Shown here piece after piece: positions 1 to 12,796 of a stretch of DNA of 64,000 nucleotides. A program made the translations under genes and the position numbers. The notes below the pieces were generated by a model, which was given only the letters and a program-made list of their open reading frames with translations, made no database searches and had not been told where the DNA came from. Source of the stretch: Shinella granuli (GTDB taxonomy: Bacteria; Pseudomonadota; Alphaproteobacteria; Rhizobiales; Rhizobiaceae); NCBI RefSeq assembly GCF_004341885.1, contig NZ_SLVX01000001.1, positions 434,001 through 498,000 on the forward strand. The letters are read 5' to 3'. The stretch's first letter is position 1; every line of letters begins with the position of its first letter.

Positions 1-697
1 CGCGCCACAGCCGGTCCCACAGCGAGAGCGCCCTGGCGCGGGGCACGAAGAGTTCGTAGCCGAGATCGCCGGTGAAGCCGGTGCGCGAGATGGTCACCGC
101 GCCGTCCTCGTGCGGGAAGGTGCCGATATGGAAGGGTTTCAACGCCTCCACGCCGGCAAACCCGGCATCGCGCAGCACCGCGTAGCTCGTCGGCCCCTGC
201 AGGGCGAGGCCGGCGATCTCCTCCGTCTCCTCGTGGATGTCGACCGCAAAGCCGAAGGCGCTGTCGAGGAGCCAGGGCAGGTGGCGTTCCTGGCAGCAAA
301 GGCGGAATTCGTTTTCGCCGAGGCGGAAGAGCGTGCCGTCGTCCAGCACATGGCCGTGGTCGTCGCACCAGGCGGTGTAGTGCACGCGGTTCACGCCGAG
401 CTTGCGCACGTCTCGCAGGGTCAGCCGGTTGAGGTAGCGCCCGGCATCCGGGCCGGTTATGCGGTACTTCACCATCGGCGATATGTCGAAGAGGGCGGCG
501 GTGGAGCGGATGGCGAAATATTCGAGCTCGCCGTCGAACAGCGCATGCGGCGCCTTGTAGCCGGCCCAGTTGTACCAGTCGTTGACCTCGCTCAGCGCGA
601 TCAGGCGGTCATGGAACGGGCTTTCCAGCCGCGGCGCGAGGATATGGTTGCGGGCGGCGCGGCGCAGGTCCGCGGCGGATTTCGTCATGGCGTTCAT
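1..697 (-). CDS. GcvT-family aminomethyltransferase-like protein (partial, 3' end beyond window)
   Basis: Read on the minus strand from an ATG at 697, the frame stays open for 232 codons to the window edge, so the C-terminus is missing. The translation has GcvT-family folate-binding features: a YNWAGYKAP-like segment, RSTAALFDISPMVKYRITGPDA near residues 65-85, and a later LQGPTSYAVL and ISRTGFTGDLGYELF stretch, which is the conserved core of glycine cleavage T protein and its relatives (dimethylglycine oxidases, DMSP demethylase). It would pass a one-carbon unit to tetrahydrofolate. Its ATG overlaps the stop of the upstream FAD oxidoreductase by 4 bp (ATGA), so the two are translationally coupled. 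No other glycine-cleavage gene is near, which points to a demethylation pathway rather than glycine catabolism; that last step is inference. Confidence 0.8.
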   Translation of the reverse strand, partial: MNAMTKSAADLRRAARNHILAPRLESPFHDRLIALSEVNDWYNWAGYKAPHALFDGELEYFAIRSTAALFDISPMVKYRITGPDAGRYLNRLTLRDVRKLGVNRVHYTAWCDDHGHVLDDGTLFRLGENEFRLCCQERHLPWLLDSAFGFAVDIHEETEEIAGLALQGPTSYAVLRDAGFAGVEALKPFHIGTFPHEDGAVTISRTGFTGDLGYELFVPRARALSLWDRLWR

Positions 698-2250
698 GCG
701 CTCGCTCCCGAAAGGATGTGGCGGGCCGCGTTCCAGCCCGGCAGGCCGGAAATGCCGCCGCCCGGATGCGCGCCGGCGCTCGCGAGATAAAGGCCTTCGA
801 TCGGCGTGCGGTAGCCGGAGGCGGCGCTGGTCGGTCGGTTGACGAGGAGCTGGTCGGCCTGCAGCTCGCCGTGATGCCAGTGGCCGCCGGGCAGGTTGTA
901 TTCCGCCTCGATATCGACCGGCGTCATCAGGCTGGCCGCGACCACGGACTTTTCGAGGCCGGGCGCATGGCGCTCCAGCGTGTCGAGCACGATCTTGAGG
1001 AAGGCCGGCTTGCCGCTCTCCCAGCCTGCCTTGAGGCGATAGGGCGCATATTGCACGAGCGCCGAGAGCGTGCAGGCGCCGCCAGGGGACAATGACGGGT
1101 CGGTAAGGCTCGGCAACGTCACCTCCATGACGGGATCGCTGGAGAATTCGCCGTATTTCGCCGGGTTGAAGGCCTCCTCGACCTGCTCCATCGAGCGCAC
1201 CAGCACGATGCGCCCGCCGCGGGCTTCCGCCGGCAGGCCGGTGAAATCCGGGACGCGGTCGAGCGCGAGGTCGAGCTTGGCGACATTGCCGTGGCTGCGC
1301 ACGTTCTTGACCGAGCGCACGAAGCCGGTGCCGCTTTCGGCGGGATCGACGAGGTGGAGGAAGGTCGTCTGCGGGTGGATCGCCGAGACGATGACGGGGG
1401 CGGTGATCTCCGTGCCGTCGCCGAGAACGACGCCGCTCGCCCGGCCGCGATCGGCGAGGATGCGGCCGACGGGCGTGCCGCAGCGCAGGGTGACGCCGGC
1501 CTTTTCCGCGGCGCGCAGGAAGGCGGGCGCGACGCGCGCCATGCCGCCCGCCGGCACGAACTGGCCGCCGGCCTTGCCCGCGACCTCGCCGGTCAGGCGA
1601 TAGTAGAGGCCGAGCAGGGAGGTCGGCGAGCGGGGACCGAGATGGATGCCGAGCGTCGCATCGAAGGCGAGGAGGCCTTTCAGCCGGTCGTCCGAAAGAT
1701 ATTCGTCGGCGACGTCGGCGACGTTCATCAGCAGCATGCGCAGGAAATCGCGGCCCTCGCCGCGCCCCTTGCGGATGAGGCCGAAGCCGGCGGAAGCGAA
1801 GGTGGAGAGGTCGCCGAGCGAGAGCGCGCCGATCTGCGGCGGGGGGCGGCGGAGGAACCGCTTCAGGATGCCCGCCTGGAAGACCAGCTTCCTGCGCAGC
1901 GCCGCGAAGGCCTCCGCCTCCTCGGGCGAGACGCCGTCGATGCGCTCGCCATAGGCGCCGTGCAGCACGGCGGCCTTTCCCGAGCCGTCGAGAACCGTGG
2001 TCGGCAGCAAGGTGTCCGTGCCGGCAAGGTCGAGGCCGATGTCGCGCGCCACGTCCGCATCGAGCCGGTTGACGAGATGGGCAAGGCCGGCGGAGCGGAA
2101 GCCGGGCGCGAATTCGCGGCCGCGCGTCGCCCCGCCCGGTTCGCTTGCTGCTTCCAGCACCAGGACCTTGCGGCCGCCCTTGGCGAGGCGCGTGGCGGCG
2201 GCAAGGCCGTTGTGGCCGGCGCCGATCACGATGGCATCAAATGACGTCAT
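694..2250 (-). CDS. CrtI-type NAD(P)/FAD-dependent oxidoreductase, second of a pair
   Basis: A 518-residue flavoprotein with an N-terminal dinucleotide-binding fold (DAIVIGAGHNGLAAATRLA, residues 5-23) and the acidic end of the second beta strand (VLVLEAASEPGGAT). The C-terminus has the conserved FAD-contacting segment GLYLASAGAHPGGGISGLPG. This is the phytoene-desaturase-like oxidoreductase family, which oxidises C-C or C-N bonds and is not limited to carotenoids. It lies between a paralogue upstream (14 bp overlap) and the GcvT-like gene downstream (4 bp overlap), in one minus-strand operon. The context suggests oxidation of an amine-derived substrate. No carotenoid genes are present. The exact reaction cannot be told from sequence. 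Confidence 0.88.
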   Translation of the reverse strand: MTSFDAIVIGAGHNGLAAATRLAKGGRKVLVLEAASEPGGATRGREFAPGFRSAGLAHLVNRLDADVARDIGLDLAGTDTLLPTTVLDGSGKAAVLHGAYGERIDGVSPEEAEAFAALRRKLVFQAGILKRFLRRPPPQIGALSLGDLSTFASAGFGLIRKGRGEGRDFLRMLLMNVADVADEYLSDDRLKGLLAFDATLGIHLGPRSPTSLLGLYYRLTGEVAGKAGGQFVPAGGMARVAPAFLRAAEKAGVTLRCGTPVGRILADRGRASGVVLGDGTEITAPVIVSAIHPQTTFLHLVDPAESGTGFVRSVKNVRSHGNVAKLDLALDRVPDFTGLPAEARGGRIVLVRSMEQVEEAFNPAKYGEFSSDPVMEVTLPSLTDPSLSPGGACTLSALVQYAPYRLKAGWESGKPAFLKIVLDTLERHAPGLEKSVVAASLMTPVDIEAEYNLPGGHWHHGELQADQLLVNRPTSAASGYRTPIEGLYLASAGAHPGGGISGLPGWNAARHILSGASA

Positions 2251-3856
2251 GGGCTTTGCTCATCTGTTCGGGGGAACGCTTCAGGTCGCGCAGGATCTCG
2301 GCGGCGGCGTTGCGGCCGGGCGCGCCCATCACCCCGCCGCCCGGATGGGTGGAGGAGCCGCACATGTAGAGGCCGGATATCGGGCTGCGGTACTGGGCGT
2401 AGCCGGGCACGGGCCGGTTGAAGAGCAACTGGTCGAAGGTGAGCTCGCCCTGGAAGATGTTGCCTTCCGTCAGGCCGACCTCGTTCTCGATCTCGCGCGG
2501 CGTGCGCACCTCCATATGCACGATGCGCTCTCGGAAGCCCGGCGAATAGTCCGCGATCTGGCCGATCACCGTCTCGGCGAAGGCGTCGCGGTCGGCATCC
2601 GTCCAGTCGCGGCCCTGAAGTTTTGGCGGGCAGTACTGGACGAAGCAGCTCATGAAGTGCTTTCCTGGCGAGGCCATGGTCGGGTCGAGCGTCGTCGGGA
2701 TCACCATGTCGAGGAAGGGATCGGCCGACCAGCGCCCCGCCTTCCAGTCGTCATAGGCGCGCTCCATGCGCTCGATCGAATCGGTGAAATGCATGTCGCC
2801 GCGTATGCAGGAGGAGCCTTCCGGCAGGGCCGGGAACTCCGGCAGGCTGTCGAGCGCGATGTTCACCTTGCCGGAGGAGCCGCGCATCTTGAAATGCCTG
2901 ACCCGGTGGACGAAGTCGCCGGGCAGGGTGTCCTCGTCGACGAGCTTGAGGAAGGTGCGCTTCACGTCGGCATTCGAGACGACGAGGTCGGCGCGCACCT
3001 CGTCGCCGTTGGCGAGCACGACGCCGGTGGTGCGGCCGCCGCGGGTGAGAATTTTGGAGACCTCGGCGTCGGTGCGGATCGTGCCGCCGGCGGCCTCGAA
3101 GGAGCGGGCGAGGGCCTGCGTCACCGCGCCCATGCCGCCGCGCGCATAGCCCCAGGCGCCGACGGAGCCGTCCACCTCGCCCATGTAGTGGTGCAGCAGG
3201 ACATAGGCGGTGCCGGGCGACATGGGGCCGAGCGCGGTGCCGATGATGCCCGAGAGCGCGAGATAGGCCTTGATGACGTCGGTCTCGAAATATTCGTCGA
3301 GGAAGTCGGAGATCGACATGGTCCAGAAGCGCAGCGTCTCGGCCATTTCCTGCGGGCTGAACTCGCCGAACTTCTTGGCGAGATAGAGGAATTCGGAAAT
3401 GTCGCGTGGGCGAAAACCGAAGGGATCCGGCGCGGTGCGCATCAGGAGCGGCTGGATGAAGCGGCACTGGCGCGTCACGTCGCGGGCGTAGCGCTCGTAG
3501 GCCTCGGCGTCGCGTTTCGAATAGCGCGCGAATTCGCGGCGGTGGCTGTCGTGGTCACGGTAGGAGGCGAGGTAGTCGCCGTCGCGGGTGAAGACCGCGC
3601 CGCCCTCGTAGGCGATGACCTGGAGGCCGTGTTTCGGCAGTTCCAGGTCGCGCATGATCTCCGGCCGGAAGAGGGAGCAGACATAGGAACAGTTGGAGTA
3701 GAGGAAGCCCGGGGTCAGTTCGCGGCTCGTCGCAGCCCCGCCGACCCAGCCGTTCTTTTCGAGCACCGCGACGTTCAGGCCGGAGCGCTGGAGATAACAG
3801 GCGGTAACCAGCCCGTTATGGCCGCCGCCGACGATCAGGGCATCGTACTTTTGCAT
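2237..3856 (-). CDS. CrtI-type NAD(P)/FAD-dependent oxidoreductase, first of a pair
   Basis: The chosen start is the ATG at 3856 (protein begins MQKYDALIVGGGHNGL), because a GGGAGA ribosome site lies just upstream and the FAD-binding fold begins immediately; an in-frame extension to 4021 would run through the operator. The protein is 539 residues, with the Rossmann GGGHNGLVTACYL at about 10-22 and the C-terminal GLYMCGSSTHPGGGVMGAPG that matches its downstream neighbour in position and pattern. It is the promoter-proximal gene of an operon with the second oxidoreductase and the GcvT-like gene. A perfect 16 bp palindrome 60-75 bp upstream is a probable repressor site. Function beyond an FAD-dependent oxidation is not assigned. 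Confidence 0.88.
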   Translation of the reverse strand: MQKYDALIVGGGHNGLVTACYLQRSGLNVAVLEKNGWVGGAATSRELTPGFLYSNCSYVCSLFRPEIMRDLELPKHGLQVIAYEGGAVFTRDGDYLASYRDHDSHRREFARYSKRDAEAYERYARDVTRQCRFIQPLLMRTAPDPFGFRPRDISEFLYLAKKFGEFSPQEMAETLRFWTMSISDFLDEYFETDVIKAYLALSGIIGTALGPMSPGTAYVLLHHYMGEVDGSVGAWGYARGGMGAVTQALARSFEAAGGTIRTDAEVSKILTRGGRTTGVVLANGDEVRADLVVSNADVKRTFLKLVDEDTLPGDFVHRVRHFKMRGSSGKVNIALDSLPEFPALPEGSSCIRGDMHFTDSIERMERAYDDWKAGRWSADPFLDMVIPTTLDPTMASPGKHFMSCFVQYCPPKLQGRDWTDADRDAFAETVIGQIADYSPGFRERIVHMEVRTPREIENEVGLTEGNIFQGELTFDQLLFNRPVPGYAQYRSPISGLYMCGSSTHPGGGVMGAPGRNAAAEILRDLKRSPEQMSKAHDVI

Positions 3857-3915: not shown

Positions 3916-3931
3916 CTGAATGATCATTCAG
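3916..3931. promoter_or_regulatory. Palindromic operator CTGAATGATCATTCAG between divergent operons (BetI-like site 1)
   Basis: Perfect 16 bp inverted repeat, CTGAATGA followed by its reverse complement. Its core TGAATG-N2-CATTCA recurs, with one base change in the left arm, at 9856-9869 and 12781-12794, each time upstream of a gene of the same island. It sits between the oxidoreductase operon (minus) and the methyltransferase-TetR-SBP operon (plus). Size and symmetry fit a TetR-family dimer, most simply the BetI-like regulator encoded at 4835. Confidence 0.72.
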
Positions 3932-4019
3932 CAAGTATCTTGCAATCGCCTGATTATGCGCTAGAATTTCGGCCAGGGAAAAAGCGCGCCGGCCATGCGG
4001 CCGAAGGGTGACGGAGGCC

Positions 4020-4838
4020 ATGACGGCAACAGGCAGGGACGGTGCGGCGGCGGAGCCGGAATATGACGAGGCGGCGATCCGCTTCCTCGCGGTCCTGTGG
4101 GGCGAGGGTTATCTTTCGCCGGGCGGCCCGGCGGAGGTCGATCGCGTCCTTGCGGGCGTCGACCTCAAGGGCCGGCGTGTCCTCGATTTCGGCTGCGGGG
4201 CCGGCGGCATCACGCTGCATATCGCAAGGACGCATGGTCCGGCCGAGATCGTCGGCTACGACGTGGAGCAGCCGGTCATCGACCGGGCGCGGGCGGCGGC
4301 GGCCAAAGCAGGGCTTTCCGCGGTCGCACGTTTCGTCTCCAGTCCTCCGGGCCGCCTGCCGTTCGACGATAATGAATTCGACGTCGTCTTCTCCAAGGAT
4401 GCGATGATCCATGTGCCGGACAAGGAGGCGCTGTTCGCCGAGCTTTACCGCGTGCTGAAGCCGGGCGGCGTTCTGGCCGCGTCCGACTGGCTGATCGGCC
4501 ATGACGGCGCGCCGAGCCCGGACATGCAGGACTACATCGCCGCCGAAGGGCTGAGCTTCGGCATGGCCTCGCCGCGCCGCTATCTTGAGGCCATGGCGGC
4601 GGCGGGCTTTGCCGATGGCAGGGTGGAGAGCCGCAATGCCTGGTATCGCGAGGTGGCGCGCGGCGAGCTGGCGCGGCTCAAGGGGCCGCTCCATGCCGAG
4701 GCGGTGGCGGCGGTCGGCGAAGCCTATGTCGCCAAGAACATCCGCACCTGGACGGCCATGCAGAAGGTTCTTGACAGCGGGGAGCATTGTCCGGCTCATC
4801 TGCGCGGCATCAAGCCGGCCGCGGGAGTTCGCCCGTGA
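4020..4838 (+). CDS. Class I SAM-dependent methyltransferase (phosphoethanolamine/amine N-methyltransferase-like)
   Basis: A soluble Rossmann-fold methyltransferase of 272 residues. Motif I is [16 protein letters not shown] (about 50-65), followed by the acidic [10 protein letters not shown], a motif II region [26 protein letters not shown], and ASDWLIGH. The [11 protein letters not shown] and SDWL segments resemble the phosphoethanolamine/sarcosine N-methyltransferase branch, so an amine nitrogen is a plausible acceptor; that is inference. Start is uncertain: ATG 4020 has GGAGG only 2 bp away, and a GTG at 4008 is the alternative. The stop overlaps the TetR start by 4 bp (GTGA), and the substrate-binding protein follows, so the three form one operon. 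A methyltransferase inside an apparently demethylating island is unexpected. Confidence 0.82.
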
Positions 4839-5545
4839 CCGTGACGATGCGCAATCCCAAAGGCAAGGTGGCGGTGAAGATGCGGGCAGGCGGGGCTGAA
4901 CAGGGCTCGGGCGACGGCGAGAAGCGGGGGCGCAAGGCCTCCAAGGAGACGCGGCGGCAGCAGCTCGTCGAGGCGACGATCGATTCGCTCGCCAGGCGCG
5001 GCTATTCCGACACGACGCTCGCGGACGTCGCGGACGGTGCCGGCCTTTCGCGCGGCATCGTCAACTTCCATTTCGAGAGCAAGGAAAACCTGCTCATCGC
5101 CACGCTGCAGTTCATGTCCGAGGAATATGCGGACCACTGGAACGCGGCGCTGGAAAAGGCCGGCCCGAGCGCGGCGAGCCGCGTCTGGGCCCTCGTGCAT
5201 GCGGATTTCGACCGCAAGATCTGCACCAAGCGCAAGCTTGCCGCCTGGTGCGCCTTCTGGGGCGAGGCCAAGTCGCGGCCGACCTACCAGGCGCTGTGCG
5301 GCGCGCGTGACGTGAAGTACCAGGAGACCGTGATCTCGCTCTGCGCCGCGCTGAAGGCGGAGGGCGGCTATGCCTACGAGCCGGAGCCGATGGCGCTCTC
5401 GCTCTGCGCCATGCTGGAGGGCCTGTGGCTGCGCCTGATGATGGGCGACGGCACCACGCGGGAAAAGGCGCTGGAGGCGGCCATCGCCTTCGTCGTCGCG
5501 ATCTTCCCGAAGCATCTCACCTTGCAAGGACCACAATCACAATAG
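4835..5545 (+). CDS. BetI-like TetR/AcrR-family transcriptional regulator
   Basis: The GTG at 4835 is preferred as start because GGGAG lies 7 bp upstream and it overlaps the preceding stop; an ATG at 4847 is possible. The 236-residue protein has an Arg/Lys-rich lead-in, then a TetR helix-turn-helix ([45 protein letters not shown]). The ligand-binding half carries [15 protein letters not shown] and [14 protein letters not shown], the two positions where BetI has its AFW...P and DGLWLR signatures. BetI represses choline-betaine genes and responds to choline. Here the neighbours are not betA/betB, so the effector may be another quaternary amine. It probably controls its own operon through the palindrome at 3916. 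Confidence 0.88.
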
Positions 5546-5573
5546 GGAACCCGAAACGGGGAAGGAGTACGGC

Positions 5574-6656
5574 ATGAAGACTGCACACACGGCCAGGCGC
5601 ACCACACTGGCGGCATTGGCCGCCTTCCTCGCCTTCGGAACCGCCCTTCCAGCCTTTTCCGCCGATACGCTCACCGTCTTCGACTGGTCCGGCTACGAGG
5701 ACCCCGCCTTCCACCCCGCTTACACGGAAAAGCACGGCAACTCGCCGGATTTCTCGTTCTTCGGCGACGAGGAGGAGGCCTTCCAGAAGCTGCGCTCCGG
5801 CTTCAAGGCCGATGTCGCGCATCCCTGCGCGCAAAGCATCGTCAAATGGCGCGAGGCCGGGCTGCTGGAGCCGCTCGACACCGCCAGGCTGGCCGCGTGG
5901 AACGATATCCTGCCGGCCTTCAAGGACATGAAGAACCTGATGACCTCGGACGACGGAACGGCCTGGTTCCTGCCCTTCGAATGGGGCAACACGGTGCTGA
6001 CCTACCGCACCGACACGGTGAAGCCGGAAGAAATCGCCTCGCTCAGGGCCTTTGCCGATCCGAAGTTCAAGGATCGCGTCTCGATCGGCGACAATGTCGA
6101 CGACGCCTATGCGCTGGCGAGCCTTGCCATCGGCGTCAAGGACTGGGCGAGCCTGACGGACGCGCAGTTCGAGGAGGCTTCCGCCTTCCTGCGCGAGGTG
6201 CACAAGAACGTGCGGCTCTACTGGACGGACAATACCGACCTCAGCCAGGCGCTGGCGAGCGGCGAGGTCGATCTCGCCTGGGCCTGGAACGAGACGGCGA
6301 CGACGCTGCAGGCCGAAAGCCAGCCGGTCGCCATCAAGAAGGACACCAAGGAGGGACTGTCCACCTGGGTCTGCGGCTATTCGCGGCTGAAGGGCGGCGA
6401 AGGCAGCCTCGACCTTGCCTATGACTACCTCAACGCCGTCACCGATCCGGCCGTCGCGGCCTACATGGTCGAAAGCTGGGGCTACGGCCATTCCAACGCC
6501 AAGGGCATGGCCGCCGTCGACCCGAAGATCCTCGCCGACAAGGGCTATGCGGATGTCGAGGCCTTCGTCGCCAACACCCTGTTCCAGGCGCCGATCCCGA
6601 CGGAGCTGCGGCAGAAGATGATCGCGGAGTTCGAGAAGATCAAATCGGGGTATTGA
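5574..6656 (+). CDS. Periplasmic spermidine/putrescine-type ABC substrate-binding protein
   Basis: A 360-residue exported protein. The signal peptide is clear: MKTAHTARRTT, a hydrophobic stretch, then cleavage near AFSADTL. The mature part begins LTVFDWSGYEDPAF, the usual start of PotD/PotF-type proteins, and continues with the FFGDEEEAFQKLRSG and WNETATTLQAES regions of that fold. It would bind a cationic or amine ligand in the periplasm. GAAGGAG lies just before the ATG. It is the last gene of the methyltransferase-TetR operon, 28 bp after the regulator, whereas the matching ATPase and permeases are on the other strand at 6.8-9.7 kb. The binding protein is thus coupled to the regulator rather than to its own permease genes. 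Confidence 0.9.
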   Translation: MKTAHTARRTTLAALAAFLAFGTALPAFSADTLTVFDWSGYEDPAFHPAYTEKHGNSPDFSFFGDEEEAFQKLRSGFKADVAHPCAQSIVKWREAGLLEPLDTARLAAWNDILPAFKDMKNLMTSDDGTAWFLPFEWGNTVLTYRTDTVKPEEIASLRAFADPKFKDRVSIGDNVDDAYALASLAIGVKDWASLTDAQFEEASAFLREVHKNVRLYWTDNTDLSQALASGEVDLAWAWNETATTLQAESQPVAIKKDTKEGLSTWVCGYSRLKGGEGSLDLAYDYLNAVTDPAVAAYMVESWGYGHSNAKGMAAVDPKILADKGYADVEAFVANTLFQAPIPTELRQKMIAEFEKIKSGY

Positions 6657-6667
6657 GAGGGCGGCTG

Positions 6668-6815
6668 CCCCTCATCCGGCCTGCCGGCCACCTTCTCCCC
6701 GCAGGCGGGGAGAAGGGACATTGCCGCAGGGTTTTCCCTCTATCATCGCAAAAGCGTCACCACAGCTTCCTTCTCCCCGCTTGCGGGGAGAAGGTCGCGG
6801 CAGCGGGATGAGGGG
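6668..6815. repeat. Palindromic repeat doublet, family A
   Basis: A 148 bp element bounded by CCCCTCATCC and its inverse GGATGAGGGG. It contains two strong hairpins, CCTTCTCCCCGC-N2-GCGGGGAGAAGG at 6691-6716 and again at 6769-6794. A related copy is at 28283-28420. It fills the gap between two convergent genes and probably ends transcription from both sides. This type of non-coding palindrome is common in rhizobial genomes. Confidence 0.85.
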
Positions 6816-6820
6816 CTAAG

Positions 6821-7930
6821 TCACACGCGCGTAACCGGCGGGTCTTCCGCCAAAAGCACGAACGCCTCCGGATCATAGGCCAGCCGGATCTCCGCGCCGA
6901 CCGGCAGGTCGTCGGCGCCGAAATTGTTCGTCTCGACCATGGAGAGCGGCTGTTCCAGCCCGTCCACGCCGACCGTCAGGTGGGTGACCTCCCCGAAATA
7001 GGCGCGGTTCTCGATGCGGCCGGCAAGCTCGTGCGGGGCGCGGTCGTCGTCCCACAGGAGCCGCAGCCGTTCCGGGCGGATGCCGACGGTGACATGGCCG
7101 TTGGTGGCGGCAAAGCCCTGCGGCTTGTCGAGGCTGACCGCGCCGAAGCGGGCGGCGTCGACGGAGACGGCGTTGCCCTGTTCTCCCAGCACCTTCGCCT
7201 TCAAAAAGTTCATGCCGCCGAGGAAGTCGGCGACTTTTCGCGTGCGCGGGCGCTGGTAGATTTCCTTCGGGCTGGCGATCTGGGCGATGCGGCCGCCGAA
7301 CATCACGGCGATGCGGTCGGAGAGCGCCAGCGCCTCGTACTGGTCGTGCGTGACGAGGATGAAGGTGATGCCGACGGCCTTCTGCAGCGTGCGCAGCTCC
7401 ACCTGCATCTCCTCGCGCAGCTTCTTGTCGAGGGCGGAGAGCGGTTCGTCGAGCAGCAGCACCTTCGGCCGCATGACGAGGGCGCGGGCGAGCGCCACGC
7501 GCTGGCGCTGGCCGCCGGAGAGTTCATGCGCCTTGCGTTGGCCGAGGCCCGTGAGGCGCACCTGGTCGAGCGCGTCGCCCACCCGCTTCCTCTCGTCCTG
7601 CGCGGAAAGCCTCAGCCGCTTCAGGCCGTAGGCGACGTTTTCGGCGACGTCGAGATGGGGAAAGATGGCGTAGTTCTGGAAGACCATGTTGGTCGGGCGC
7701 CTGTTCGGCGGCAGCGCGAGGGAGGGCACGCCGTCGATGAAGATCTCGCCCGCCGTCGGCGTCTCGAAGCCGGCAATCGAGCGCAGCAGCGTGGTCTTGC
7801 CGCAGCCGGACGGGCCGAGCAGCGAGAAGAACTCGCCTTCGCCGATGGTGAGCGAGACATCGTCGAGCGCCTTGTAGATGCCGTAGAACTTCGACACGTT
7901 GGCGATCTCGATCATCGGGCGGTCGGCCAT
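6821..7930 (-). CDS. ABC transporter ATP-binding protein (PotA-like)
   Basis: A 369-residue ATPase of the polyamine/opine importer class. Walker A GPSGCGKTT is at residues 39-47, the Q-loop in NMVFQNYAIFPHL near 85, the signature LSGGQ at 137-141, Walker B VLLLDEP with D161-E162, and the switch histidine in VTHDQ at 195. A C-terminal TOBE-type regulatory domain follows from about residue 240 (VGIRPERLRLL). The ATG at 7930 has an AGGAAGAGGAA site. It is the third gene of a permease-permease-ATPase operon, 15 bp after the second permease. The cognate binding protein is the one at 5574. Confidence 0.93.
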   Translation of the reverse strand: MADRPMIEIANVSKFYGIYKALDDVSLTIGEGEFFSLLGPSGCGKTTLLRSIAGFETPTAGEIFIDGVPSLALPPNRRPTNMVFQNYAIFPHLDVAENVAYGLKRLRLSAQDERKRVGDALDQVRLTGLGQRKAHELSGGQRQRVALARALVMRPKVLLLDEPLSALDKKLREEMQVELRTLQKAVGITFILVTHDQYEALALSDRIAVMFGGRIAQIASPKEIYQRPRTRKVADFLGGMNFLKAKVLGEQGNAVSVDAARFGAVSLDKPQGFAATNGHVTVGIRPERLRLLWDDDRAPHELAGRIENRAYFGEVTHLTVGVDGLEQPLSMVETNNFGADDLPVGAEIRLAYDPEAFVLLAEDPPVTRV

Positions 7931-7945
7931 GTCCGGTTCCTCTTC

Positions 7946-8770
7946 CTAGGGCAGCGTGAAGGCCATCTGCGTGCGGCGTTCGGCCCGGCGGCGCAGGATT
8001 TCGGTAAGGGTGAGCATGAGGATGGAGGCGACGAGCATGACGGTGCCGAGCGCCAGCACGCCCGGCAGCTTCGCCGCGAAGCGCAACTGCCCCCAGATAT
8101 AGACCGGCAGCGTCGGCTCGGTGCCGGAAAGGAAGAAGGCGAGGATGAACTCGTCGAGCGAGATGGTGAAGGTGACGAGCAGGCTGGAAACGATGGCCGG
8201 CGCGACGACCGGCAGCGTGACGCGCCGGAAGGTGCCGATGGCGGTCTCACCGAGATCGTAGGAGGCCTCCTCCAGGCTGCGGTCGAACCCCTCGAAGCCG
8301 GAGACCAGCACCGACATGGCATAGGGCACGCAGAACACCGTCTGGCCGAGGATGACCGTGATCAGCGACAGTTCGACGCCCATCGCCAGCACGATCATCA
8401 AGAGCGAGACGGCAACGATGATCTCCGGCAGGAAGAGCGGCGCCATGATGAGGCCGGCTGCCGCCCTCTGGCCGCGGAAGCGGTAGCGCGTGATGGCGCG
8501 GGCGGCGCAAATGCCGAGCACGGTGGAGAGCAGCGAGACGGCGACGCCGACGACGAGGCTGTTCCAGGCCGCTTGCAGCATGACCGAATTGCCGGCGAGC
8601 GAGGCGTACCACTTGGTGGTGAAGCCGGCGAGGGGGAAGGTGGTCGTCGCCGCATCGTTGAGGGAGAAGACCGGCAGAAGCAGGATCGGCAGGTAGAGGA
8701 AGAGGAAATAGAGCGCGACATAGGCCGGCAGGAACGGAAGGACGCGCAGGCGCTGCGTGAGGAGGCTCAT
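7946..8770 (-). CDS. ABC transporter permease (PotC-like)
   Basis: An inner-membrane permease of 274 residues with about six hydrophobic segments. The cytoplasmic EAA loop, EEASYDLGETAIGTFRRVTLP near residues 165-186, is the contact for the ATPase. The N-terminus has the LPAYVALYFLFLYLPILLLPVFSLND pattern of PotC/PotI-type proteins. The ATG at 8770 overlaps the stop of the first permease by 4 bp, so translation is coupled. It partners with the permease at 8767-9684 and the ATPase at 6821 in an importer for a small amine-like solute. Confidence 0.92.
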   Translation of the reverse strand: MSLLTQRLRVLPFLPAYVALYFLFLYLPILLLPVFSLNDAATTTFPLAGFTTKWYASLAGNSVMLQAAWNSLVVGVAVSLLSTVLGICAARAITRYRFRGQRAAAGLIMAPLFLPEIIVAVSLLMIVLAMGVELSLITVILGQTVFCVPYAMSVLVSGFEGFDRSLEEASYDLGETAIGTFRRVTLPVVAPAIVSSLLVTFTISLDEFILAFFLSGTEPTLPVYIWGQLRFAAKLPGVLALGTVMLVASILMLTLTEILRRRAERRTQMAFTLP

Positions 8771-9684
8771 CTGATCCTCCTGACGGTGAATTTCAGCGCC
8801 AGCACGACGGCTGCTGCCGTCAGCGAGACGAGCACCATGGTCGTGACGGAGAGGGCGGCGCCGAGCGGCCAGTTGGCGCCCTTGCCGAACTGCGCCTGGA
8901 TGGCGGTCGCGATCATCACGCCGTCCTTGCCGCCGACGAGGCGCGGCGTGACATAGTCGCCGACGGTCGGGATCATCACGATCAGGAAGGCGGAGATGAT
9001 GCCGGGCAGCGAGAGCGGCAGGGTGATGCGCAGGAAAGCCTTGAAGCGGCTGTCGCCGAGATCGCGCGCCGCCTCGATCAGCGTGCGGTCGATCTTCTGC
9101 AGCGAGACGTAGATCGGCAGGATGGCGAAGGCCGCCCAGCTATGCACCAGCGTGATGACGACGGCGTTGGAATTGTAGAGCAGCGAGGTCAGCGGCTTGT
9201 CGATGAGGCCCATCGAGATGAGGCCGGTGTTCATGACGCCGCCATAGCCGAGGATGACCTTCCACGACATGACGCGCAGAAGATAGCTCGTCCAGCAGGG
9301 CACGGTGACGAGGAAGAGCCAGAGGTTCTTGTGCACCCCGCCGTGGAAGGAGATGAACCAGGCGATCGGATAGGAGAAGACGACGGTGACGATGCTGACC
9401 GTCAGCGAGATCCACAGCGAGCGGATGAAGAGGTCACGATAGATCGGCTCGGTGAGGGCTTGCCGGTAGTTTTCCAGCGTGAAGGTGCGGTCGATGTCGA
9501 GATAGTCCTGGGTCCAGAAACTGTAGGCGATGACGATGAGGACCGGGAGGAAGAGCAGCGCCAGCGCATAGAGGAAGGTCGGCGAGATCAGGGCGAGGCC
9601 GCGGGCCTCCTCGCTGCGCATCCAGGCCCTGCGCCTCCCGGAGGAGGGCGTGTCGGCAAGCGCGCCAAACGCCGCCGCCGTCAT
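8767..9684 (-). CDS. ABC transporter permease (PotB-like)
   Basis: A 305-residue membrane permease. The start is taken as the ATG at 9684 because GGGAGG lies 8 bp upstream; a TTG at 9708 would add eight residues without a ribosome site. A short soluble N-terminus is followed by about six membrane segments, the first near LISPTFLYALALLFLPVLIVIAYSF. The EAA loop is IEAARDLGDSRFKAFLRITLPLSLPG. It heads the permease-permease-ATPase operon and is divergent from the class III aminotransferase. The shared 260 bp spacer carries a copy of the island's palindromic operator. Confidence 0.92.
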   Translation of the reverse strand: MTAAAFGALADTPSSGRRRAWMRSEEARGLALISPTFLYALALLFLPVLIVIAYSFWTQDYLDIDRTFTLENYRQALTEPIYRDLFIRSLWISLTVSIVTVVFSYPIAWFISFHGGVHKNLWLFLVTVPCWTSYLLRVMSWKVILGYGGVMNTGLISMGLIDKPLTSLLYNSNAVVITLVHSWAAFAILPIYVSLQKIDRTLIEAARDLGDSRFKAFLRITLPLSLPGIISAFLIVMIPTVGDYVTPRLVGGKDGVMIATAIQAQFGKGANWPLGAALSVTTMVLVSLTAAAVVLALKFTVRRIR

Positions 9685-9853
9685 CGGCCGCACCTCCCGC
9701 CGCGACAACTCTCATGGAGCGTGAGATTTCCCGTTCCCATGCGCTTGCGCCTTTTCGGCCTCTGTGTGCTCGTTTTCGGGCACGCTGCTGTTCCCTGATG
9801 GACAGCATGCGCCGAAATCCCCGTTGAAATCAAGCCCTGTTTCTGCAATATTG

Positions 9854-9871
9854 ATTGAACGAACATTCAAT
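9854..9871. promoter_or_regulatory. Palindromic operator ATTGAACGAACATTCAAT (BetI-like site 2)
   Basis: An 18 bp near-perfect inverted repeat, ATTGAACG-AA-CATTCAAT, between the divergent permease operon and the aminotransferase gene. It shares TGAAyG-N2-CATTCA with the sites at 3917-3930 and 12781-12794. The surrounding bases (AATATTG on the left, ATAT on the right) are AT-rich in a GC-rich genome, as expected for a promoter. A TetR-family regulator such as that at 4835 is the likely ligand. Confidence 0.72.
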
Positions 9872-9945
9872 ATGATTGGGAAAACCAAAATCTTTCATAT
9901 CGTTGTTCCAAGATTCTTTCTGGTAAATAATCGATGGAGAGGGAC

Positions 9946-11370
9946 ATGGCGGCAATTCCGAAGACGGCGAACGAGGACCTGCGTGCCGACGAGGCGGCCG
10001 GTGACGAACTCACCCGGCTGGCCGAGCGCCACCTGGTGCAGCCCTGGCCGGTTTCCGGCTCCATCGGCGCGGAAGCGCGCGGGCGCATCGAGGCGGGCGA
10101 GGGCATCTATGTGACCGACGCCGCCGGTCGCCGCCTGATCGACGGGCCTGCCGGCATGTGGTGCGTCAATGCGGGGCATCGCAACAGGCAACTGGCCGAC
10201 GTCATGGCTGCGCAGGCGATGGAGCTCTCCTACAATTCGCCCTGGTACACGACCAACACGCCGTCCGCCGTGCTCTCCGCCCGCCTTGCCGAACATGCGC
10301 CCGACGGGATCGACCATGTCTTCTACACGACCGGCGGCTCGTCGGCGGTCGAGACGGCGCTGCGCTTCATGCAGTTCGCCAACAATGTGAAGGGCCGTCC
10401 GGAGAAGAAGCTGATCGTCTCGCGCCAGGGCGGCTATCACGGCTCGACATACCTCTCCGCCTCGCTCAACGGCCGGCCGCGCGATCATGACTGGATGGAC
10501 AGCGCCGCCGATCTCGTTGTCAAGCTCTCCTGCCCCGATCCGTTCCGCCGGCCGGAGGGCATGAGCGTCGAGGCCTTCTGCGATTTCCTCGTCGAGGAGT
10601 TCCGCGCGGTCATCGAAGAGAGGGGGGCGGAACATATCGGCGCCTTCATCGCCGAGCCGGTCATGGCCTCCGGCGGGGTCATCGTGCCGCCCGCCGGTTA
10701 CCTCAAACGCATGCACGCGCTCTGCCGCGCCAACGACATCCTCTTCATCGCGGACGAGGTGGTGACCGCCTTCGGCCGCCTCGGCCATGTCTTCGCCTCG
10801 CAGGACGTCTTCGGCATCGACCCGGACATGATCACCTTCGCCAAGGGCGTGACGTCGGGCTATTTCCCGCTCGGCGGGGTGATGATCGCCGGGCGCCTCT
10901 TCGAGGAACTGCGCCGTTCGAGCCATTCGGAGGCGATGTTCGCGCATGGCCTCACCTATTCCAGCCATCCGGTCGGCTGCGCGGTGGCGCTGAAGAACCT
11001 CGACATCCTGGAGGACGGGCTGCTCGACCATGCGCGCGCCGTCACCGACCATTTCCAGGCGAGCCTGAAGGCGCTGGAGGAGCTGCCGCTGGTCGGCGAG
11101 GTGCGCGGCCTCGGCCTGATGGCCTGCGTGGAATGCGTCGCCGACCGCGTCAGCAAGAACCCGCTGACGCTCGATCTGGAAGTCGGCAAGCGCATCGACC
11201 GGCATTGCCAGGATCTCGGCCTGCTGGTGCGCCCGCTCATCAACATGTGCGTGATGTCGCCGCCGCTCACCATTTCGCTGGAACAGATCGACGACATGGC
11301 ATCGATCCTGCGTCGTGGCATCGAGCTGACGATGGACGACTTGACGCGCGAAGGGCTCTGGAAGGGCTGA
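9946..11370 (+). CDS. Class III PLP-dependent aminotransferase (omega-amino acid/polyamine type)
   Basis: A 474-residue PLP enzyme. The ATG at 9946 is chosen because GGAGAGGG lies immediately before it; the ATG at 9934 would use no site. The fold-type I landmarks are present: TTGGSSAVETALR binding the cofactor phosphate (about 128-140), ADEVVTAFGRLG with the cofactor-pairing Asp near 270, and the Schiff-base Lys in TFAKGVTSGYFPLGG near 300. The family transfers amino groups from omega-amino acids, diamines or beta-alanine to pyruvate or 2-oxoglutarate. Next to a polyamine-type importer it probably removes the terminal amine of the imported compound or of a demethylated product. It is transcribed away from the transporter, across operator site 2. 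Confidence 0.92.
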   Translation: MAAIPKTANEDLRADEAAGDELTRLAERHLVQPWPVSGSIGAEARGRIEAGEGIYVTDAAGRRLIDGPAGMWCVNAGHRNRQLADVMAAQAMELSYNSPWYTTNTPSAVLSARLAEHAPDGIDHVFYTTGGSSAVETALRFMQFANNVKGRPEKKLIVSRQGGYHGSTYLSASLNGRPRDHDWMDSAADLVVKLSCPDPFRRPEGMSVEAFCDFLVEEFRAVIEERGAEHIGAFIAEPVMASGGVIVPPAGYLKRMHALCRANDILFIADEVVTAFGRLGHVFASQDVFGIDPDMITFAKGVTSGYFPLGGVMIAGRLFEELRRSSHSEAMFAHGLTYSSHPVGCAVALKNLDILEDGLLDHARAVTDHFQASLKALEELPLVGEVRGLGLMACVECVADRVSKNPLTLDLEVGKRIDRHCQDLGLLVRPLINMCVMSPPLTISLEQIDDMASILRRGIELTMDDLTREGLWKG

Positions 11371-11404
11371 GGCTCTTCGCGTTGGGCCTGCCGTGTGATG
11401 TGGG

Positions 11405-11530
11405 TCCTCGGGTCAAGCCCGAGGATGACGGGGAGGAGGCTCCCACCCGTCAAGCGGTGCAGCATATGGCCATGTCGCTTTTGCCCGCCGTGCTTCTCTT
11501 CCATCGTCATCCTCGGGCTTGACCCGAGGA
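11405..11530. repeat. Palindromic repeat doublet, family B
   Basis: Two perfect 26 bp inverted copies at 11405-11430 and 11505-11530. Each is itself a hairpin built on TCCTCGGGTCAAGCCCGAGGA and ends in the bases ATGACG. A second element with the same ends is at 50389-50480. It lies between the convergent aminotransferase and Rieske genes and may act as a terminator. Confidence 0.85.
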
Positions 11531-11563
11531 TCCGCGCGGCACCCACGGCCCTGCCGGAGAAGC

Positions 11564-12760
11564 CTAGCCTTGCCGCAGCCCGGCATTGACCTCCGCCATC
11601 GCCTTCTCCTCCGGCGCGTCCTTCAGCGTCACCACCGGCAGCACCTTGCGCAGATGGTCGTGATGGGTGCGCACGCCGTATTCGAGGTCGGAGAGGTAGA
11701 AGCCGGCAAAGGCGTTGGAGGTCATCGCCTCGTTCGACCAGACGGTGAGCTGCACGTCCTCGGCCTGGGTGTCGCGGTCGATGCGGAAGGCGAGGTAGCG
11801 GGCGAGGCGGTGGGCGCGCTCCTCCTGCCGGTAACGGTAGATGCCGCCGCGCAGCAGCGTGCGGCCGACGCCGAGCGGAAATTCCTGGTAGAACTGCACG
11901 GTCTCCGGCGTGACGGCGATGACGGCATTCGGGAACAGGCCGAAATAGATCCAGGCCTTGCGCAGCCGCTCCGGCAGCGCATGGTTTTCGGGAGAGATCT
12001 TCACATAGTTGCGCACGCTCCAGCGCCGGCCGGCATGCGGGTTGTAGGTGGCGAAGGAGCGGCAGAGGCCATCGACGAAGGGCTCGTCGTAGTAGGTCGA
12101 GCCGTAGAGGTCCTGCAGGGCGGGATGCGCCATGGCGACGTGGTAGCCCTCGTTGTCGACATCGCGCACGGATTTCCAGTTGACGGGCGTCTCCTGGGTC
12201 CAGATCTCGCCCGCCGGGATCATCTCCTCGGTGCGGTAATGCGCCAGCTCCTCTTCGAAGGGCTTCATCAGCTCGACGACGGAAGGCTGCGGGCCGGGCG
12301 CGAAGCGGATGAAGACGAAGCCCTGCCAGACCTCGCATTCCAGCGTTTTCAGTGCGAATTCGTTCTTGTCGAGCGGGGGAAAGCTGCGGGGGCGCGCGGC
12401 GCCGCGCAGCGTGCCGTCAAGATTGTAGACCCAGCCGTGGAAGGGACAGACCAGCGCGTTGCGGCAACTGCCCTTCTCGTCGGCGACGAGACGCGAGCCG
12501 CGATGGCGGCAGATGTTGTGGAAGGCACGCACCGTGCCGTCCTGCCCGCGCAGGATGAGCGCGCGCTCGCCGACGACGTCCATGGCGAGGTAGTTGCCGG
12601 GCTCGGGAATGTCGGAGACGTGGCAGGCGATCTGCCAGTGCTCGCGGAAGACATGCTGCTTCTCCAATTCGAGGAGGGCGGGGCTGTGATAACACCAGCC
12701 GGGAAGTCCGCTCCTGTCCCAGTCGTTCGGAACGCTGATATCGCGGATCATCTCGTTCAT
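11564..12760 (-). CDS. Rieske non-heme iron oxygenase, alpha subunit (GbcA/stachydrine demethylase-like)
   Basis: A 398-residue ring-hydroxylating-type oxygenase. The Rieske cluster ligands are C84, H86, C105 and H108 (CRH...CPFHGW). The catalytic iron site shows as DVDNEGYHVAMAH, with histidines at 207 and 212. Close relatives act on quaternary amines such as glycine betaine and proline betaine, removing a methyl group as formaldehyde, as well as on aromatics; the island's importer and BetI-like regulator favour an amine substrate, but that is inference. No ferredoxin reductase gene is adjacent, so electrons must come from elsewhere. GGGAG precedes the ATG, and operator site 3 lies about 20-35 bp upstream. 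Confidence 0.9.
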   Translation of the reverse strand: MNEMIRDISVPNDWDRSGLPGWCYHSPALLELEKQHVFREHWQIACHVSDIPEPGNYLAMDVVGERALILRGQDGTVRAFHNICRHRGSRLVADEKGSCRNALVCPFHGWVYNLDGTLRGAARPRSFPPLDKNEFALKTLECEVWQGFVFIRFAPGPQPSVVELMKPFEEELAHYRTEEMIPAGEIWTQETPVNWKSVRDVDNEGYHVAMAHPALQDLYGSTYYDEPFVDGLCRSFATYNPHAGRRWSVRNYVKISPENHALPERLRKAWIYFGLFPNAVIAVTPETVQFYQEFPLGVGRTLLRGGIYRYRQEERAHRLARYLAFRIDRDTQAEDVQLTVWSNEAMTSNAFAGFYLSDLEYGVRTHHDHLRKVLPVVTLKDAPEEKAMAEVNAGLRQG

Positions 12761-12780
12761 GTCGCTCCCCTGTCTTTTGC

Positions 12781-12796
12781 TGAACGTTCATTCAAT
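12781..12796. promoter_or_regulatory. Palindromic operator TGAACGTTCATTCAAT upstream of the Rieske gene (BetI-like site 3)
   Basis: TGAACG-TT-CATTCA matches the core of the sites at 3917-3930 and 9856-9869. The Rieske start codon is at 12760, so the site is placed to block its promoter. Nothing on the other side is divergent (the next gene is on the same strand and has its own terminator), so this copy serves the Rieske gene alone. Confidence 0.72.

Follow-up and report, generated by a model that had tools for sequence, protein, structure and literature searches.

A gene island at the start of a 64,000-nucleotide stretch of Shinella granuli DNA (assembly GCF_004341885.1, contig NZ_SLVX01000001.1, positions 434,001 to 498,000 of the forward strand; hereafter the window, numbered from its first letter) carries one 14-base palindrome at three promoter regions, and the TetR-family regulator encoded within it is very probably a dedicated repressor of its own island, acting through this BetI-type palindrome at all three regions to control what is probably a pathway for an N-methylated amine. 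The island's eleven genes most likely constitute one local regulon under the adjacent TetR protein, as judged from sequence. The sites themselves, their conservation, the separation of the regulator from BetI, and a difference at base 4 of the half-site are computed results. The elements on which the argument turns are the following.

3917..3930, no strand: operator 1, TGAATGATCATTCA, in the divergent intergenic region between flavin adenine dinucleotide (FAD) oxidoreductase 1 (FAD1, minus strand) and methyltransferase-TetR (plus strand)
9856..9869, no strand: operator 2, TGAACGAACATTCA, in the divergent intergenic region between a permease (minus strand) and an aminotransferase (plus strand)
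12781..12794, no strand: operator 3, TGAACGTTCATTCA, ending 20 bases 5' of the start codon of a Rieske oxygenase (RO)
4835..5545, plus strand: TetR-family regulator with the BetI-type C-terminal domain TetR_C_6 and a recognition helix of the S[RS]GIVNFHF type

Three operators in the window and the genome

All three copies reported by the first-pass annotation lie where it placed them, and its statement that the window holds no other also stands, as the four further places found at up to two mismatches each carry two and are at chance level, given that shuffled windows average 4.9 matches at that threshold. A promoter scan has operator 2 begin 3 bases past the predicted -10 of the aminotransferase promoter, finds a 9-of-12 promoter near operator 1, downstream of it, and finds no promoter at operator 3. 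When the whole assembly (6,587,143 bases in 97 contigs) was scanned with the symmetric form TGAAYGNNCRTTCA (TGAAYG-N2-CRTTCA), perfect matches occurred at exactly three places, all of them island promoters, rather than in many copies at unrelated genes, the outcome named in the first-pass annotation as speaking against a regulon. At up to one mismatch there are 24 places, compared with 6 for a control in which the pattern was read backwards. Markov models of order 1 to 4, trained on 125,851 bases of the genome, put the expected number of perfect places at 0.55-1.21 in the genome and 0.005-0.012 in 64 kilobases (kb), and three perfect sites inside 9 kb are therefore not a matter of chance.

Conservation of the operators in relatives

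The relatives compared are the best 80 of at least 572 stretches encoding a FAD1 relative, chosen by FAD1 similarity with the motif ignored, and a site was counted at up to one mismatch in loci whose upstream stretch was present (assessable). It precedes RO in 18 of 18 assessable relatives (15 perfect; RO at the edge in 9, and in 53 either missing from the retrieved sequence or below the identity limit), the aminotransferase in 64 of 64 (53 perfect; gene absent in 16), and the first permease in 64 of 64 (54 perfect; absent in 15, at the edge in 1), the last two sharing one divergent site. Upstream of FAD1 it is found in 78 of 79 (at the edge in 1), 22 times perfect and 56 times with one mismatch; 46 of these 78 sites read TGAACATTCATTCA, which is one mismatch from the pattern. 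Comparison with relatives thus lifts the three sites far above chance.

The same motif emerges when no pattern is presupposed. Among all 4096 six-base half-sites combined with nine spacers (0-8), TGAATG-N2 ranks first, occurring at up to two mismatches in 48 of 53 upstream regions drawn from 27 representatives chosen by hand, as a rule one for each genus, whereas the median over all half-sites is 0. When the sites are aligned, a longer box of roughly yTGAAYG-NN-CRTTCAr emerges. Sites move with their promoters in clusters of different gene order (L107, L109, L110, L117, L169), and in G265, a genome of the host's family, the RO, aminotransferase and permease genes lie about 31 kb from TetR-SBP (SBP, solute-binding protein), with a site at both parts: perfect at RO and one mismatch off at the other two. 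Besides its operators, G265 (contig C23; L060, L176) keeps the regulator, SBP, RO, aminotransferase and permeases.

Twenty genomes were picked by the analyst from 297, ten with the regulator and ten without, and hold 11 and 1 perfect sites, respectively, the reversed control giving 3 in all 20. Island-cluster promoters account for eight of these twelve sites and the region upstream of a true BetI for one; the other three are elsewhere. The earlier proposal of one regulon of at least ten genes is thus well supported, with eleven now counted and with operators that are conserved across genera and follow the helix of the regulator.

A regulator that is a sister of BetI

The regulator combines an N-terminal TetR_N helix-turn-helix domain (PF00440, by profile scan) with the C-terminal domain PF13977 (58.5 bits against a cut-off of 27). 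It shares with BetI this TetR_C_6 domain, the location of its gene in an amine-utilisation cluster, and an adjacent palindrome of equal length and spacing. It differs in falling below both BetI family cut-offs (117.5 against 201.3 bits for TIGR03384, 111.9 against 118 for NF001978), in occupying a separate branch, in the A at base 4 of its box, and in its neighbours, profile scans of the island genes having brought up no bet gene. The genome has a true BetI on contig C2 (241 bits), adjoined by the choline-sulfatase gene betC (779 bits against a cut-off of 433). A maximum-likelihood tree of 64 regulators splits 30 island-type from 32 BetI rows by one branch with support 100/100; two rows fall outside both groups and the island row L086 is a long branch. 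Its BetI rows comprise 27 of the 45 BetI loci described below and five fetched later, L051 having been dropped as its row held a stop. These five BetI-family matches, chosen as possible second or divergent BetI copies, group with BetI and not with the island regulators.

Because its scores are below the cut-offs, its branch is separate, and a true BetI lies beside betC in the same genome, the regulator is to be regarded as BetI-like but not BetI, apparently a sister lineage. The first-pass description of a BetI-like protein accordingly survives as far as its domain goes, but the protein is not BetI itself and the regulon is not that of choline. With palindromic operators at its own and neighbouring promoters that are conserved along with the gene, it can be provisionally classed as a TetR-family local repressor with several operators. 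In-frame stop codons were seen in two homologues (G105:C25:8442-9062, TAG; G208:C1:146776-147456, TGA).

The nearest precedent is the BetI1/BetI2 pair of Ruegeria pomeroyi, as described in PMC12442346: BetI1 has the box ATTGACG*CGTCAAT, its footprinted region covers the -35 box, and a second BetI has a deviating box; BetI2 of Alphaproteobacteria controls betTA. The likeness lies in a second BetI-type regulator per genome with a box departing from the betI consensus, and the difference in the control of betTA by BetI2 and in the grouping with BetI of the five candidate second or divergent copies.

Base 4 of the half-site and the recognition helix

The box of BetI was derived de novo from 45 true BetI upstream regions, made up of 30 of 50 matches (loci given) and all 15 from a second search, with locus L189, near a contig start, counted among the regions without a box. 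It is of the type TTGATTG-NN-CArTCAA, equal to the island operator in length and spacing and differing at base 4. Counted with the base-4-neutral pattern TGANYGNNCRNTCA, which is looser (with one mismatch allowed, it also turns up in 12 of 400 shuffled 400-mers), 310 of 320 island half-sites have A at base 4 (FAD1 156/156, permease 118/128, RO 36/36), as against none of the 64 half-sites of BetIs with an ALA helix, where the base is T in 39, C in 20 and G in 5. The ALA helix occurs in 29 of the 30 BetI loci read from the host's family. In BetIs whose helix is GIV, as in the island regulator, or GLV, A occupies base 4 in 7 of 16 half-sites. The first-pass statement that BetI sites are palindromes of TGAACG type is consequently true of some BetIs, such as those of L220 and L221 (two genomes of another family), which have TGAATG/TGAACG-type boxes upstream, but not of ALA-helix BetIs, in which base 4 is never A.

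In the genome's own betI box, TTGATTGATCACTCAA, two positions depart from the island pattern, and base 4 (A in place of T, C or G) probably serves mainly to keep the island regulator off it. The link between helix residue and base 4 is a correlation across few lineages. Of 39 loci with an island-type regulator, 24 have the helix S[RS]GIVNFHF, and 17 of these carry a site no further than 6 kb away, as does 1 of the 15 with other helices (Fisher p 1.6e-4, without correction for relatedness); because site presence follows the recognition helix, the TetR protein is supported as the cognate factor. Island-type regulators with other helices (SHGVVN; SHGLV) lie near differing palindromes, TGACTGAACAGTCA in L081 and TGAACTGTCAATCA or TGAATTGTCAATCA in L075, L082, L083 and L085, hinting at what may be a wider helix-operator code.

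Proposed mechanism and the genes it would control

Binding, repression, effector and pathway chemistry are proposed here by reading sequence and homology. A dimer of the TetR protein would bind yTGAAYG-NN-CRTTCAr at the three promoter regions and repress five predicted transcription units, FAD1-FAD2-GcvT, methyltransferase-TetR-SBP, permease-permease-ATPase, the aminotransferase, and RO. Repression of the second unit would be autoregulation, which is likely because that unit begins beside operator 1, and operators 2 and 3 would be natural places for repression because they lie next to the predicted -10 and to the RO start codon, respectively. The repressor would be freed from DNA by an N-methylated amine, perhaps a quaternary one, or by something formed in its breakdown. 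The importer would take the amine up, RO and the FAD enzymes would strip methyl groups, the GcvT protein would hand the one-carbon unit to tetrahydrofolate, and the aminotransferase would take off the freed amino nitrogen. Profile scans upheld the gene assignments of the first-pass annotation, namely the FAD pair and GcvT leftwards, methyltransferase-TetR-SBP rightwards, the permeases, the aminotransferase, and RO; besides the regulator, the genes are these.

1..697, minus strand, running to about -535 beyond the window: GcvT-like aminomethyltransferase (full gene L046:11466-12698, 410 amino acids)
694..2250, minus strand: FAD oxidoreductase 2 (FAD2), of the same type as FAD1 (profile scans)
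2237..3856, minus strand: FAD1, CrtO/CrtI-like (profile scans)
4020..4838, plus strand: S-adenosylmethionine-dependent methyltransferase, nearest solved structure phosphomethylethanolamine N-methyltransferase
5574..6656, plus strand: PotD-like periplasmic SBP (profile scans, PotD alignment)
6821..7930, minus strand: PotA-like ATP-binding cassette ATPase (profile scans)
7946..8770, minus strand: PotC-like permease (profile scans)
8767..9684, minus strand: PotB-like permease, first gene of the permease-ATPase operon
9934..11370, plus strand: class III (omega) aminotransferase (NF005447, 689.6 against a cut-off of 618)
11564..12760, minus strand: RO alpha subunit, nearest solved structure carnitine monooxygenase CntA

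FAD1, FAD2, GcvT and the regulator co-occur in 74 of the 80 best loci, and the methyltransferase gene, which overlaps the start of TetR, is present in 63 of the 80 stretches. Similar gene sets are found, among others, in Shinella zoogloeoides, Rhizobium sp. SL42, Fuscovulum ytuae and Parasedimentitalea marina, and in unannotated records of Ensifer adhaerens and Shinella sp. PSBB067.

The likely substrate class

RO carries Rieske (PF00355) and ring-hydroxylating catalytic (PF00848) domains. It resembles CntA/GbcA as a Rieske oxygenase, in its nearest structure (CntA), in its top NCBIfam match, and in a Glu that aligns with E205 of CntA (position by manual count, allowing for a 20-residue tag), a residue whose role is treated in PMC10952381; it differs in scoring below the GbcA NCBIfam cut-off (142.4 against 670), in lacking a Cys-X-X-Cys pair, and in its gene neighbours. 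The nearest solved structure to the GcvT protein is the C-terminal part (residues 410-755 of 793) of trimethylamine N-oxide demethylase (Tdm), ahead of glycine-cleavage T-proteins. Unlike in Tdm, the GCV_T/GCV_T_C unit stands alone here, beside two CrtO-like FAD enzymes. A further gene family occurs in 43 of the 80 relatives (L093-L172), of which one scanned member, L115:5946-7418, is a flavin amine oxidase with monoamine, cyclohexylamine and putrescine oxidases as nearest solved structures; between SBP and ATPase the window has no room for it. Amine import, demethylation, folate one-carbon capture, and loss of amino nitrogen are suggested by the CntA-like RO, the Tdm-like GcvT, the PotD-type SBP, and this oxidase family, and the island is probably a pathway for an N-methylated, perhaps quaternary, amine.

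That the regulon is real but serves a polyamine of the putrescine or spermidine type is unlikely, although it has the PotABCD-type importer, the omega aminotransferase, and the putrescine-oxidase-like flavoenzyme of relatives to recommend it. All four importer components resemble PotABCD, but fall below the NCBIfam equivalog cut-offs. Read against the ligand residues of PotD, which we take to be four aromatic and three acidic ones, the SBP alignment (manual count) keeps Trp34, Tyr37, Trp229 and Trp255, but has Asn for Asp168, Asp for Glu171, and Cys for Asp257. The loss of acidic character at two of the three acidic positions lowers the case for a polyamine, and the CntA-like RO and Tdm-like GcvT indicate N-demethylation instead.

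In the Fuscovulum cluster (L050:21207-23658) the same gene run includes proteins of the dimethylsulfoniopropionate-lyase family and Amidohydro_3, a possible clue to the substrate. On a Shinella sumterensis plasmid (L175:11995-14746), a 42% FAD1 paralogue and GcvT lie in a coenzyme A-ligase/3-keto-5-aminohexanoate-cleavage (BKACE-type) cluster; this pairing suggests that FAD(CrtO-like)+GcvT is a recurring module, and the cluster loosely matches betaine-type chemistry. Weak FAD1 relatives in Sphingobium (39% identity) were pursued as a pathway lead and set aside, as no clear pathway emerged.

More tentatively, the island may represent a novel N-methylated-amine pathway, distributed among rhizobia, that combines a CntA-like RO, a CrtO-like FAD pair and a stand-alone Tdm-like folate enzyme, run by a sister of BetI insulated from it by base 4 and by a helix change from ALA to GIV/GLV. 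If true, this would be a natural one-base insulation of two related repressors, and a clean test case for how two such proteins, sharing a cell and almost the same operator, keep apart. Ahead of experiment, the analysis would have predicted which genes make up a catabolic regulon widespread in rhizobia and which regulator and operator govern it, and the regulator and its SBP could serve as handles to find the substrate. Among the matches listed in the open-licence literature, judged by title and the start of the abstract, there was no report of this cluster or regulon; searches following homarine, stachydrine and trigonelline leads and the gene combination, and others on BetI boxes, RegPrecise-type regulons and TetR specificity, returned no paper on this gene set among the matches listed.

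Weighing the regulator against other readings

Several results weigh against a dedicated repressor of this pathway. Of the 24 regulators whose helix matches, seven lack a site within 6 kb even when one mismatch is allowed; one of them is on a 4 kb contig, and the sites of L054 lie further away, at RO and aminotransferase/permease, with none at FAD1/TetR. Allowing one mismatch still leaves six of 19 FAD1-bearing loci among L048-L087 (L050, L051, L068, L075, L076, L086) without a site, and in all of these but L068 the regulator has a different recognition helix; L139 is the sole exception at FAD1 in the 80-locus tally. These 80 loci are phylogenetically uneven, with many Mesorhizobium, and the events they count are therefore not independent. 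In G265 a search at E 1e-80 found no FAD1; since regulator and sites are nevertheless present there, the gene set does not always include the FAD pair. Two of the three perfect sites elsewhere in the 20 genomes are within open frames. In G085 the island pattern is also found upstream of the true BetI, with betA nearby, and base-4 insulation is hence not universal. As for the chemistry, RO has Gly and Val in place of the Cys206-X-X-Cys209 pair that occurs in some Group V members according to PMC10952381 (the aligned CntA chain has Ala at 209), and no reductase gene for RO was noticed among the island genes, the genome not having been searched for one.

It is very improbable that the sites are bound by the true BetI on contig C2 and that the island is a choline/glycine-betaine regulon. 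The two boxes are equal in length and spacing, and in G085 and G120 the upstream box of the true BetI fits the island pattern at 0 and 1 mismatch, respectively; but the genome's own betI box is two mismatches off, and ALA-helix BetIs, its own included, never have the A that marks nearly all island half-sites. Together, family scores, tree, gene content and box led us to reject this reading. We give an equally small chance to a separate, unlinked transcription factor that uses the three sites with the TetR neighbour as a bystander. Binding by the TetR protein is proposed from sequence and the site is missing near some relatives with the same helix, which suits a bystander, but the site tracks both the TetR orthologue, as the 20-genome comparison shows, and the recognition helix; it also lies beside the transcription unit to which the regulator belongs and is similar to the box of the sister family, BetI. 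Chance or repeat-derived likeness of the three copies, favoured by nothing except the short length of the motif, was rejected as next to impossible on the whole-assembly scan with its genome-wide rarity, the relatives' tally with cross-genus conservation at the same promoters, the first rank in the half-site enumeration, the 20-genome comparison, and the Markov expectation.

Other features of the island and its surroundings

Directly beside the GcvT end of the island, at L046:7463-11230 (about -4538 to -771 in window numbering), lie two genes outside the regulon that, read from the sequence, look like those of an AcrR-like TetR protein and a resistance-nodulation-division efflux pump. Two kinds of palindromic intergenic repeats occur at 6690-6815 and 11400-11535 of the window, of the CTTCTCCCCG..CGGGGAGAAG and CCTCGGGTCAAGCCCGAGG types, and the second kind recurs in the same genome at about 2099-2166 of L091.

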